A DNA stretch of 64,000 nucleotides from positions 496,001-560,000 of the forward strand of contig NZ_VORT01000001.1 of assembly GCF_007997155.1 (NCBI RefSeq). Reading direction: 5' to 3'. Positions 45,470 through 50,023 of this stretch are shown here, in pieces; position 1 is the stretch's first letter; the number at the start of each line of letters is the position of its first letter. The notes beneath the pieces are model-generated. The model was not told the DNA's origin, did no database searches, and saw nothing but the letters and a program-made list of their open reading frames with translations. Position numbers and translations under genes: made by a program. Source of the stretch: Aequorivita antarctica. GTDB lineage: Bacteria > Bacteroidota > Bacteroidia > Flavobacteriales > Flavobacteriaceae.

Positions 45470-47299
45470 ATGTCAGCACACGCACAGGTCCCCGCATTAG
45501 AAGATCATCACGATGATCACGGGCATCATCATAAACAAACCTTTGTAACTAAATATATATTTAGTACAGATCATAAAATGATCTCAAAACAATATATGAT
45601 TACCGGTATATTTATGGGTGTCATCGGAATTTTGATGTCTTTATTGTTCAGGTTGCAACTAGCTTGGCCAGACCACAAGTTTACTATTTTTGAGATATTC
45701 CTCGGAAAATGGGGAACAGATGGGGTTATGGATCCAAGTGTTTACTTGGCCTTGGTGACAATTCACGGAACCATAATGGTGTTTTTTGTTTTGACAGCTG
45801 GATTGAGCGGAACCTTTAGTAATCTACTTATCCCACTTCAAATTGGAGCAAGAGACATGGCTTCTGGCTTCCTTAATATGGTTTCCTATTGGTTGTTCTT
45901 TATATCTAGTGTAATAATGCTAGGATCACTATTTGTTGAAGCAGGACCGGCTTCTGCGGGATGGACAATCTACCCTCCTTTAAGTGCATTGCCTCAAGCA
46001 ATACCTGGATCTGGTGCAGGTATGACTTTGTGGTTAATTTCCATGGCAATATTTATTGCAGCATCATTATTGGGCTCTCTTAACTTTATTGTTACAGTGC
46101 TTAACCTGAGGACTAAAGGAATGTCCATGACCAGACTTCCACTTACAATTTGGTCATTCTTTTTAACCGCAATTATTGGTGTTGTTTCTTTTCCGGTTCT
46201 TTTTTCAGCAGCTCTGATGTTGATTATGGATAGAAGTTTCGGTACATCCTTCTTCCTCTCGGATATTTATATAGCTGGGGAAGTATTGCATCACCAAGGT
46301 GGTTCGCCAGTTTTGTTTGAACACCTTTTCTGGTTCTTAGGACACCCAGAAGTTTACATCGTGATTCTTCCCGCAATGGGAATCGTTTCCGAAGTCATGG
46401 CTACTAACTCACGAAAACCTATTTTCGGTTATCGAGCCATGGTCGCTTCCCTATTAAGCATTGCTTTCCTTTCTACAATTGTATGGGGGCACCATATGTT
46501 TATTTCAGGAATGAACCCATTCTTAGGATCGGTATTTACATTTACAACGCTTCTTATTGCAATTCCTTCTGCAGTAAAATCTTTTAACTGGATAACCACA
46601 CTGTGGCGTGGAAAACTACAAATGAACGTAGCAATGCTATGGAGTATAGCATTTGTATCTACCTTTATTACTGGAGGTTTAACAGGTATTATCATGGGTG
46701 ATAGTGCTTTGGATATTAACATTCACGATACCTATTTCATTGTAGCTCACTTCCACTTGGTAATGGGTATTTCTGCCGCTTACGGCTTTTTGGCTGGGGT
46801 GTATCATTGGTTCCCAAAAATGTTTGAAGGTAGAATGATGAACAAAAAATTGGGCTATATCCACTTTTGGGTAACTGCCATTGGTGCCTACGGAATATTT
46901 CTTCCAATGCACTTTGTTGGATTGGCGGGGCTTCCTCGTAGATACTATACCAATACCAACTTCCCTTATTTTGATGATTTAGCAGATATCAATGTGGTTA
47001 TGACCATTTTTGCTATCATTACAATATCAGCCCAAGTGATCTTTCTATACAACTTTATCCACTCTATGTTCTTTGGAAAAATAGGCCCAAAAAACCCTTG
47101 GAATTCCACTACTTTAGAATGGACTGCCGAAGTGAAACACATCCACGGAAACTGGGATGGTCCAATTCCACATGTTTACCGTTGGTCTTATGACTATAGC
47201 AAGTTGAATAAAGACGAAACCGATTTCGTGATTCCGGGACAAGACTTTATTCCTCAGCATGTTCCGTTACAGGACAACGAAGATGAATTAGATCATTAA
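45470..47299 (+). CDS. coxA: Cytochrome c oxidase subunit I
   Basis: This 609-residue haem-copper oxidase catalytic subunit has about twelve helices and the family A signatures: the FLGHPEVYIVILP loop with the CuB His and the His-Tyr crosslink, WGHHMFISGM, and the haem a3/a histidines in HDTYFIVAHFHLVMG. The His-rich N-terminus (EDHHDDHGHHHKQ) may bind metal but its role is unknown. It ends the operon before a terminator. Subunit III (coxC) is not adjacent and may be encoded elsewhere. Confidence 0.96.
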   Translation: MSAHAQVPALEDHHDDHGHHHKQTFVTKYIFSTDHKMISKQYMITGIFMGVIGILMSLLFRLQLAWPDHKFTIFEIFLGKWGTDGVMDPSVYLALVTIHGTIMVFFVLTAGLSGTFSNLLIPLQIGARDMASGFLNMVSYWLFFISSVIMLGSLFVEAGPASAGWTIYPPLSALPQAIPGSGAGMTLWLISMAIFIAASLLGSLNFIVTVLNLRTKGMSMTRLPLTIWSFFLTAIIGVVSFPVLFSAALMLIMDRSFGTSFFLSDIYIAGEVLHHQGGSPVLFEHLFWFLGHPEVYIVILPAMGIVSEVMATNSRKPIFGYRAMVASLLSIAFLSTIVWGHHMFISGMNPFLGSVFTFTTLLIAIPSAVKSFNWITTLWRGKLQMNVAMLWSIAFVSTFITGGLTGIIMGDSALDINIHDTYFIVAHFHLVMGISAAYGFLAGVYHWFPKMFEGRMMNKKLGYIHFWVTAIGAYGIFLPMHFVGLAGLPRRYYTNTNFPYFDDLADINVVMTIFAIITISAQVIFLYNFIHSMFFGKIGPKNPWNSTTLEWTAEVKHIHGNWDGPIPHVYRWSYDYSKLNKDETDFVIPGQDFIPQHVPLQDNEDELDH

Positions 47300-47324
47300 T
47301 AAAACAAGTACATAAACCACAATC

Positions 47325-47353
47325 AAGCCCTTTCAATTTTGAAAGGGCTTTTT
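47325..47353 (+). terminator. Intrinsic terminator of the act/cox operon
   Basis: AAGCCCTTTC (47325-47334) pairs perfectly with GAAAGGGCTT (47341-47350), loop AATTTT, followed by a T run. It lies 25 bases after the coxA stop. Confidence 0.88.
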
Positions 47354-47355
47354 GC

Positions 47356-47388
47356 TTCTACGTAATTTTTAAGTAGGACTACGTAGAA
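47356..47388 (+). repeat. Inverted repeat between cox terminator and candidate small RNA
   Basis: TTCTACGTA (47356-47364) and TACGTAGAA (47380-47388) are perfect inverted arms with a 15-base loop. It lies just upstream of the -7 box at 47409, where an operator could act. No regulator is known. Confidence 0.35.
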
Positions 47389-47408
47389 AGAATTTTAAAG
47401 CAATACAC

Positions 47409-47416
47409 TATCTTTG
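47409..47416 (+). promoter_or_regulatory. Predicted -7 promoter box of the candidate small RNA
   Basis: TATCTTTG matches TAnnTTTG, downstream of the cox terminator and upstream of an orphan terminator. A clear -33 element was not seen. Confidence 0.5.
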
Positions 47417-47421
47417 AACTG

Positions 47422-47508
47422 TTGAGTTTATAATAAGTAGGAAGTGAGGAACCTACCATTTATTTCACTTGGTCGTCTAAATCTAATTTAGGCGGCCTTT
47501 TTTTATTT
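47422..47508 (+). ncRNA. Candidate small RNA between coxA and ruvB
   Basis: The interval starts about 6 bases after a -7 box and ends in a strong terminator. It contains no open reading frame of note. A small hairpin (GTAGG 47437-47441 with CCTAC 47452-47456) precedes the terminator stem (47471-47497). Transcript length would be about 85 bases. It does not match the SRP RNA loop, tRNA or tmRNA. A link to the flavobacterial 6S-like RNAs is possible but untested. Boundaries are approximate. Confidence 0.5.
47471..47508 (+). terminator. Orphan intrinsic terminator (end of candidate small RNA)
   Basis: GGTCGTCTAAAT (47471-47482) pairs with ATTTAGGCGGCC (47486-47497) over 12 bp, including two G-U pairs, with a CTA loop and a T-rich tail TTTTTTTATTTTT. 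The cox operon already ends at 47353, so this terminator needs another transcript. Confidence 0.85.
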
Positions 47509-47573
47509 TTCAAATTTATAAACTTCCTATTCTATCTGCTTCAAAACTATAGAAGTGATACCAAGTGTTTTCC

Positions 47574-47581
47574 TATATTTG
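47574..47581 (+). promoter_or_regulatory. Predicted -7 promoter box of ruvB, directly at the start codon
   Basis: TATATTTG matches TAnnTTTG and ends 4 bases before the ATG at 47586, so the transcript would start at or next to the start codon. Confidence 0.5.
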
Positions 47582-47585
47582 TGTT

Positions 47586-48608
47586 ATGAACGAAAACCTC
47601 GATCCCACCGGAGAAAACCTCTCGCCACAGGAATTGGATATTGAAAAAAAACTACGCCCACTTAGTTTTGACGATTTCACAGGGCAGGATCAGGCTTTGG
47701 AAAATCTTCAAATATTTGTGCAAGCCGCAAACTTGCGCAGCGAAGCGTTGGATCATACTCTTTTTCACGGTCCTCCAGGTTTGGGAAAAACCACCCTTGC
47801 GTATATTCTTGCGAATGAATTGAATGTAAACATTAGGGTTACCTCGGGCCCAGTTCTAGACAAGCCAGGCGATCTTGCTGGATTACTTACGAATCTGGAA
47901 GAACGCGATGTGCTATTTATTGATGAAATTCACCGTTTAAGCCCTATTGTTGAAGAATATCTTTACTCGGCAATGGAAGATTATAAAATTGATATTATGA
48001 TTGAATCCGGGCCCAATGCCCGTTCGGTTCAAATTAATCTCAATCCTTTTACCCTTATTGGAGCAACTACGCGTTCAGGATTGTTAACTGCGCCTATGCG
48101 TGCACGTTTCGGAATCTCTTCGAGATTACAATATTATACTACAGAATTACTCACCACAATTTTACAGCGAAGCGCAGGAATTTTAAACGTTCCCATTACT
48201 ATGGAAGCGGCAATAGAAATTGCGGGTAGAAGTAGGGGAACACCGCGAATTGCAAATGCCCTTTTACGCAGAATCCGTGACTTTGCGCAAATAAAAGGAA
48301 ACGGAAAGATTGATATTCAAATCGCAAGATTTGGTTTGGAAGCTTTACACGTAGATGCACACGGCTTGGACGAAATGGACAATAGAATTCTTAGAACAAT
48401 CATCGAAAAATTTAAAGGCGGCCCCGTTGGAATTACTACAATAGCAACAGCCGTTTCTGAAAGTCCCGAAACTATTGAAGAGGTTTATGAACCGTTTTTA
48501 ATCCAACAAGGTTTTATAATGCGAACTCCACGTGGACGTGAAGTTACCGAAGCTGCTTACAAGCATCTCGGTAAATTGAAAGGCCCAACACAGGGCGGAT
48601 TGTTTTAG
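47586..48608 (+). CDS. ruvB: Holliday junction branch migration ATPase RuvB
   Basis: This 340-residue AAA+ motor drives branch migration with RuvA. Walker A is GPPGLGKTT (near residue 63), Walker [10 protein letters not shown], sensor GATTRSG, and the C-terminal winged helix includes [13 protein letters not shown]. The start [13 protein letters not shown] at 47586 matches RuvB starts in other Flavobacteria; an upstream in-frame start at 47565 lies within the promoter region. ruvA is separate (55421), unlike the ruvAB operons of many bacteria. A P450 gene follows, with the repeat pair in the gap. Confidence 0.96.
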
Positions 48609-48691: not shown

Positions 48692-50023
48692 ATGCCAGAA
48701 AAAAAAATCCCCTCAGTTTCTGTTTTCCGCTTTTTAATACATTCCACAAATATTATTAAAAACCCCCTGCCATTTCATCATAAAAATTTTGAATTGCATG
48801 GAGATACTTTTCGTTTAAAATTGGGTTTTGGAAAATCCGTGATCTTTTCAAGGGATCCGGGATTTGCTCAATATGCACTTCAGAAAAACCATAAAAATTA
48901 TACAAAATCGCCTATCCAAACTCGTGATCTTTCAAAATACGTAGGTTTTGGACTGCTCACTTCGGAAGGGGAGCTTTGGCAAAAGCAGCGCAAACTTATA
49001 CAGCCCGCTTTTCATAAAAAACAATTAATAAATTTGTTGGAAACCATTCAGGCCGCCATTAAAACCGAACTCAGAAAAATAGAAATAGATAAACCGATGG
49101 ATGTTTTTCCAATGTTTAACGATCTTGCCTTCCAAACAGTTGTACAATCACTTTTCAGCAGCGCGGTAAATCAAAAGGAAATAAATAAACTTCAACATAT
49201 AACAGAATCCGCCCAAAAAATGCTCGTAAAGGAATTGCGCCAACCGCATCTTGGGTGGTGGTTTATACTCAGTGGAAAAATAAAAAAACATATTTCTGAA
49301 ACTCAAGAAGCCCGAAACATTTTAAAAAAACTGGTCAATGAAAGGAAGCAAAGCGGAAAACGGGAAGATGATCTGCTGGATATGCTTTTGGATGCACGTT
49401 ATGAAGATGGAATGCCAATGGAAATGGAACAACTTGTTGACGAAATACTTATTTTATTTGTTGCCGGCCACGAAACCACATCAAACGCTCTTACTTTTAC
49501 TTGCGAATTATTGGCCCGAAACCCAGAAATTCAAGAAAAACTTTATTCAGAAATAATTGAAGCAAAAGAGAATTCAGAAACTTTGATGGAGTTTATAAAA
49601 AATTGCTCCTTCACAAAAAATGTAATTGAAGAATCATTGCGACTTTATCCGCCAGCCTATTTTATTGACCGTGTAAATATTGAAGTAGACGAATTTAATG
49701 GAATGAAAATTCCGAAAAATTCAAGTTTGTTATTTTCTTTATTAGAAATCCACACCAATCCTGCAAATTGGGAGGAACCCCAAAAGTTTAAACCGGAGCG
49801 TTTTTCAGAAGGTAAACCCAATCATTTTTCTGGACAATATTTTCCTTTTGGCGCGGGTCCGCGAATGTGTATTGGTAATAATTTTGCGATGTATGAAATG
49901 GTTTTGGCCATTGCAGAAATTATGGGGAAATATAAGATTTCTGAAAAGTTAACGCCCATCGAAATAAAACCACTAATTACTTTAAAGCCAAAAAACGCTA
50001 CATTGAAATTCAATTTAAGATAG
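48692..50023 (+). CDS. Cytochrome P450
   Basis: This 443-residue P450 has all hallmarks: I-helix [12 protein letters not shown], ExxR in EESLRLYPP, and the haem-binding loop [14 protein letters not shown] with axial Cys393. There is no N-terminal membrane anchor, so it is probably soluble, depending on ferredoxin or flavodoxin partners not encoded nearby. The sequence pattern recalls CYP102/CYP4-like fatty-acid hydroxylases; the substrate is unknown. queG follows 4 bases downstream, and this ruvB-P450-queG order looks like a chromosomal neighbourhood rather than a pathway. Confidence 0.94.

Follow-up and report, generated by a model that had tools for sequence, protein, structure and literature searches.

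A candidate small non-coding RNA gene between coxA and ruvB in Aequorivita with its own predicted promoter and terminator and a shared operator-like palindrome

The window (i.e., the whole stretch of 64,000 nucleotides from Aequorivita antarctica that was analysed) contains, between two genes which we take to be coxA and ruvB, the succession of elements compiled in Table 1. Concerning the beginning of ruvB, the mechanical ORF list puts it at a GTG at position 47565, versus the ATG at 47586 indicated by the protein match. The -7 box of ruvB is situated 4 nt upstream of this ATG, such that its mRNA is predicted to be leaderless or nearly so. Downstream of ruvB follows a gene (48692-50023) that is presumably cytochrome P450-like, as judged from its sequence.

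Table 1. Positions (in the window) of the genes and predicted elements at the coxA-ruvB locus
Feature	Position	Strand	Basis and remarks
coxA (cytochrome c oxidase subunit I)	45470-47299	+	ORF of 609 aa; upstream neighbour
coxA terminator	47325-47350	+	11-pair stem; terminator scan
Operator-like region	47358-47386		TACGTA-type half-sites at 47359, 47370 and 47380
-7 box TATCTTTG	47409-47416	+	sequence; TATCTTTA in most relatives
Predicted small RNA, about 84 nt	47421-47504	+	start placed by means of the -7 box, end by means of the T-run
Outer A/T helix of the small RNA	47430-47433 with 47460-47463	+	predicted fold
Core hairpin GTAGG-AAGTGAGGAA-CCTAC	47437-47456	+	loop 47442-47451; fold and comparison
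Small-RNA intrinsic terminator	47471-47504	+	12-pair stem 47471-47497, followed by seven Ts
ruvB -7 box	47574-47581	+	sequence; kept in the genus alignment
ruvB (Holliday junction helicase)	47586-48608	+	340-aa match from the ATG; downstream neighbour

A preliminary description of this DNA had proposed a -7 box behind the cox terminator, followed by a gene-free stretch and a second strong terminator. All of these elements were recovered. The scan of 46500-48500 for terminators yielded four sites on both strands (shuffled sequences: 1.7 +/- 1.5), the two on the plus strand being the cox terminator and the second terminator. According to the ORF listing, the coxA-ruvB interval is devoid of ORFs of at least 60 aa, and the sole ORF of at least 20 aa overlapping 47400-47520 comprises 26 aa and is located on the minus strand, such that the window copy possesses no sense ORF of 20 aa across the predicted unit. 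Two repeats pointed out in the same description call for a correction. The 9-base direct repeat TAAGTAGGA does occur twice on the plus strand (at 47370 and 47434; it is absent from the minus strand of the window), but both copies exist in only one of 25 loci, the window's own, and the repeat was rejected as a functional element. The inverted repeat CTACGTA..TACGTAG is present as well, but it forms part of an operator-like palindrome that precedes the promoter, and not of the RNA.

The distribution of the element was examined by several searches. Positions 47354-47585, compared with 99 genomes, matched in 26 of them, namely in the own genome, in 23 of the 27 others of the genus, and in G056 and G095, where the matches are short (<50 bases). 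Protein matches place 23 loci (L001-L023, the own and 22 others) between coxA and ruvB; L024 (from G001) and the second matches L027-L030, which cover query positions 118-173 only, were left out. These 23 loci served to construct a covariance model of the 52-nt core, which found one match each in 25 of the 28 Aequorivita genomes, and the two loci added by the model (L054 and L055) are again situated in the coxA-ruvB gap. The comparison of synteny that had been suggested together with the preliminary description thus finds the RNA core in this gap in all 25 loci, each with coxA before and ruvB behind it. When 397 genomes sampled from the family were searched with strict filters, the model had three matches, all of them in Aequorivita (the kinship of the 374 genomes without a match is unlisted). 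In 27 ruvB loci of other genera (3-4 kb each), the model found nothing up to E = 1, and the best occurrence of the 14-nt core contained two mismatches (L101), the others three to five. A pattern search of the genome collection detected 27 stretches, of which 20 belong to Aequorivita, one to Flavobacteriaceae UBA3591, and six to others (two to Arenibacter, four to Flavihumibacter, Gastranaerophilales, Zixiibacteriota, and Patescibacteria). Among the latter, the two from Arenibacter (L056 and L078) were inspected and lie in similar sequence, the one in L078 inside an ORF of 416 aa. As far as searched, the small RNA appears to be genus-specific and is so far known only in Aequorivita.

Within the genus, the most conserved part is the 20-nt core hairpin, with a mean pairwise identity of 94.5% among all 25 loci, a figure somewhat favoured by anchoring the block on the core itself. 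In ruvB of the same 25 loci, identity amounts to 52.1% at third and to 95.6% at first and second codon positions, and none of 1001 ruvB windows of 20 nt reaches 94.5% (maximum 92.9%). Measured against the third positions, the hairpin is conserved beyond the level of neutral DNA. The core helix is formed in 97.8% of 180 pair cells. Two-sided covariation was not found in it, the changes being one-sided only because the helix is so conserved. The terminator, with its stem and T-run present in 25 of 25 loci, behaves differently: its stem differs between two groups of species, and yet all of the 250 pair cells are standard. Its ten pairs are standard in 6/6 and 19/19 loci of the two groups, and three of the ten exhibit compensatory changes in each group, with the register of the 3' arm in the six-locus group picked by best pairing.

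Concerning the predicted fold of the entire unit, 4 of 200 shuffled sequences fold as well as the 87-nt unit of the window (z -2.64), and 0 to 4 of 200 do so for five single folds; for L012, the fold of lowest energy gives the loop region other pairing partners. The stretch AGGAAGUGAGGA, which contains two GGA motifs flanking the hairpin loop, is invariant in all 23 loci of alignment A2. Only one of the 25 loci shows a changed loop, L054 of G012 (1501-1552, GTAAGATGTGAGGA), in which the targets or the partner of the RNA may have changed too. A pseudoknot seen in the window was rejected, as the stretch TTTCACT that it needs is found in only 4 of the 25 loci (L001-L004).

The preliminary description had also considered a 6S-like RNA. 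A covariance search against Rfam, proposed with it, left the window without any family reaching its gathering threshold, and a lenient search of 47300-47600 produced 15 weak matches (lowest E 0.13), all below the gathering scores and none to a 6S family. Besides the earlier suggestion itself, the small size and intergenic position of the RNA are all that speaks for a 6S-type RNA. A separate 6S-Flavo RNA exists elsewhere in all five Aequorivita genomes searched, including the own genome (G000:C22:403785-403892, 100.9 bits at a cut-off of 85). Membership in 6S-Flavo is refuted by this separate copy and by the lack of a model match in the window, and the probability of any 6S-type RNA here is close to nil.

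In flavobacteria, the promoter consensus TAnnTTTG occupies positions -12 to -5, according to two papers (PMC9723704, PMC6847099), from which a start near 47421 and a length of about 84 nt are predicted for the RNA. The -7 box was recognised by script in 24 of 25 loci, the exception being L055 (G026); in some loci the script gives a second candidate box at another distance. No -33 element is evident by eye upstream of the small RNA, and in PMC6847099 this motif is described as much less evident in Flavobacterium johnsoniae, too. The TACGTA half-sites of the operator-like region align across species at spacings of 11 and 10 bases; the second and the third form an imperfect 16-bp palindrome (47370-47385) with its centre about 44 nt before the predicted start. 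This palindrome ends 23 nt before the -7 box in most loci (22 of 25, of which the script gave 21 and inspection by eye L003) and 22 nt before it in L009 and L054, L055 being the locus without a recognised box.

These upstream elements bear on the question whether the RNA might be derived from the 3'-UTR of the cox operon, lacking a promoter of its own. In L022 and L023 the cox terminator is missing and cox transcripts should run into the RNA, so that in these two loci the RNA may be a product of the cox 3'-UTR. In the other 23 of 25 loci, however, a terminator, seen by eye, separates coxA from the RNA, and the -7 box and the operator are conserved at nearly fixed spacing; for the genus as a whole, an origin from the cox 3'-UTR is improbable.

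The RNA might also be a cis-acting leader of ruvB (in the manner of an attenuator or a riboswitch), the terminator of which would decide on ruvB transcription. It immediately precedes ruvB and has the same orientation, the T-run ending about 80 nt before the ATG, and ruvB follows downstream in all 25 loci. An attenuator is nevertheless unlikely, because ruvB possesses its own conserved -7 box, which was also seen by eye in several genera without the RNA. Furthermore, none of the five predicted folds pairs the terminator stem with the core, and there is no Rfam match at threshold, as reported above.

An independent small non-coding RNA gene is strongly supported by the comparison of these sequences, i.e., by synteny, by the -7 box, by the conserved hairpin, and by the compensatory changes in the terminator; a predicted promoter and a terminator enclose the non-coding stretch in 24 and 25 of the 25 loci, respectively. 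This part of the preliminary description stands, whereas its 6S-like part does not.

The palindrome is not confined to this gene. In its strict form TACGTNNTANNACGTA it is present in 27 of 28 genomes with 67 sites, versus 18 for the reversed control; a looser form is weakly enriched (60 sites versus 36 in 13 genomes). The window's own operator copy TAAGTAGGACTACGTA is degenerate and is missed by the strict patterns, and a 14-base version finds the small-RNA operator in 11 of 28 genomes. A variant, TACGTAGACCTACGTA, is found on four contigs of G008 (C25, C35, C36, C37), as if on a repeated element. Beyond the small RNA, three classes of the palindrome recur among the genus genomes.

Sites of class one are located directly behind a response-regulator gene and before an ORF of about 50 codons, convergent to sucB. 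For the box nATnTTTAC, which was written after the alignment had been seen, 15 of 16 loci show an offset of 23 (the general TAHHTTW occurs at this offset in 1 of 16); the sixteenth locus, L223, has CATCTTTAC there by eye. At the class-one sites L197:3277-3292 (corresponding to C11:416276-416291 of the own genome), L115, L206, and L212, the small ORF encodes a hydrophobic, membrane-like segment, and only a few bases separate its start from the predicted -7 box. Its product is a candidate membrane miniprotein, translated from a nearly leaderless mRNA and belonging to the same regulon.

Class two is situated before a methyltransferase-like gene (so named by eye; no Pfam match), which in the own genome precedes genes for a histidine kinase and for a second response regulator. 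Here, all nine loci have TAHHTTW at an offset of 23. At several sites of this class (L198:3492-3507, L117, L120, L128), the methyltransferase-like gene, with a histidine kinase behind it, is arranged divergently to a small secreted-looking gene and to genes that we take to be tail-collar-like, some of these names having been given by eye. In class three, upstream of prfC (release factor 3), no box is found at offset 23 in 7 of 7 loci. The prfC palindromes (L200:1802-1817, L207, L213, L219) lie beside a GTAGGAAAAA block that is common to most of the seven loci.

Three kinds of promoter thus have the operator 23 nt before the -7 box, that of the small RNA in 22 of 25 loci, class two in 9 of 9, and class one in 15 of 16, and an activator shared by the RNA and by classes one and two, bound at a fixed face of the promoter, would be the simplest reading. 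As to its identity, the gene adjoining the class-one sites encodes a receiver with a LuxR-type HTH and itself adjoins a gene for a TPR-HisKA_3 kinase. This response regulator is present in 28 of 28 genomes, and, by inspection, a strict palindrome lies within about 100 nt of its gene in 23 of them. In G002 the response regulator is present and the strict palindrome absent, a variant adjoining the gene; in G012, G014, G016, and G023, there is no strict site beside it. The 7-2-7 layout of the palindrome with outer TAC resembles that of NarL sites. On account of this adjacency, of the LuxR-type domain, and of the NarL-like layout, the NarL/LuxR-type response regulator of the TPR-kinase pair is the most likely candidate for binding the palindrome.

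In other genera, 13 of the 27 ruvB loci have coxA upstream, with a gap of 59-174 nt in 12 of them and of 595 nt in L109, and by eye these gaps mostly contain one cox terminator and the ruvB -7 box. The ancestral state was likely of this kind, i.e., a coxA terminator and a ruvB promoter with nothing between them, an arrangement that other genera still show. A tree built from ruvB plus coxA puts G007 at the base of the genus as its earliest branch (support 93); this genome carries the RNA, and the three genomes without it occupy two nested places: G002 together with G008 (support 100), and G001 (weakly placed). A filter-free model search of the loci of G001, G002, and G008 gave no significant match. 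Both G002 (L085) and G008 (L084) keep a hairpin similar to the RNA terminator as the sole terminator behind coxA, for which reason a loss is the better reading. Altogether, the small RNA seems to have been lost at least twice, a count that rests on parsimony and on a tree with weak nodes (28, 37, and 39 at three of them). Absence in two nested places fits a dispensable regulator acting in trans.

Targets were sought by means of the loop. Nine genomes contain 108 exact complements of its ten bases (reversed control: 64); eight of these 108 sites represent the RNA gene itself. Of these loci, 104 were inspected (the four left out are matches in the RNA gene): 63 are antisense in ORFs, 32 are sense in ORFs, and 9 are intergenic, four of which again represent the RNA gene. 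Twelve-base complements outside the RNA gene are not clearly enriched (15 sites versus 12 for the reversed control in 28 genomes). No convincing target, i.e., a conserved sense complement of the full loop close to a start, was found among the exact matches in the nine genomes, a search that would miss short or wobble pairing. Among the sense sites, one alone recurs at an orthologous position and has a start no more than 250 nt away (L263/L321). It is shared by two close relatives, falls within an ORF, 120 nt ahead of the following one, and was not counted as a target.

Because the target search gave nothing convincing, the mechanism is argued from anatomy: a short stem carries a purine loop that hardly varies, and a terminator with a U tail follows. 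With moderate confidence, we favour a trans-acting RNA of about 84 nt whose gene would be activated from about -44 by a two-component regulator and whose purine loop would be the contact site. The NarL/LuxR-type response regulator would bind the palindrome centred near -44 and recruit the sigma-A polymerase to the -7 box, which lacks an evident -33 element. The transcript is predicted to fold into a short stem presenting the ten-base purine loop AAGUGAGGAA, an A/U-rich linker, and the terminator with its U tail. The loop would most likely base-pair with pyrimidine-rich stretches (CCUCACUU-like) near the starts of mRNAs, and this pairing would repress or stabilise them, as trans-encoded small RNAs do. 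Acting in trans, the RNA would not control its neighbours coxA and ruvB.

Two other functions of the loop were considered. The GGA motifs at or in the loop might titrate an RNA-binding protein in the manner of CsrB or RsmZ, and the invariance of the stretch that carries both motifs would suit such a protein sponge. However, a CsrA homologue is absent from the four Aequorivita genomes searched (the control search was positive in Escherichia coli, Bacillus subtilis, and Thermotoga maritima), and each RNA contains a single hairpin, unlike Csr sponges, which carry many; a sponge appears rather unlikely, although a protein other than CsrA might be the one titrated. It is very doubtful that the loop acts on the ribosome instead, occupying the free anti-Shine-Dalgarno and retuning translation under two-component control. 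In support of such a role, GGAAGUGA would be complementary, at 7 of 8 positions, to the anti-Shine-Dalgarno tail in its generally given 16S rRNA sequence. The mRNAs of the phylum lack Shine-Dalgarno sequences, as stated in PMC6847099.

Few flavobacterial small RNAs have been studied so far. In the open-access literature on small RNAs of Aequorivita, no study of the coxA-ruvB RNA was among the matches listed; a gene count in PMC10663628 includes one unnamed small RNA. The present RNA comes with a predicted activator site of nearly exact promoter geometry that is common to other genes, and a rule of palindrome, 23 nt, and -7 box would define a class of activated promoters in this group. Its confinement to the genus (as far as searched), the likely ancestral state of the locus, its apparent losses, and the shared activator geometry make the regulator and the function directly testable.

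Among known systems, the predicted control is similar to that of OmrA/B and MicF, trans-encoded small RNAs of enterobacteria under two-component control: in both cases a response regulator activates (here, as predicted) from just upstream of the core promoter, and the RNA ends at a terminator. They differ in phylum, promoter type, and sequence. With 6S-Flavo (RF01685), the RNA shares its being a small non-coding RNA of flavobacteria, whereas that family comprises 108 model positions and has its own copy in the same genome, the present RNA remaining below its threshold. The nearest comparison within the same family, as described in PMC9723704, is with the independent small RNAs of Flavobacterium psychrophilum, among them Rfp18, an intergenic RNA the deletion of which lowers two protease mRNAs. 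Equally to the RNA studied here, Rfp18 is short, has a predicted structure, and is conserved in its genus; its own transcription is reported in that source, whereas that of the present RNA is predicted. Going by this description, the two are set apart by Rfp18 having at least three stem-loops and being widely conserved in Flavobacterium, whereas the present RNA was found only in Aequorivita.
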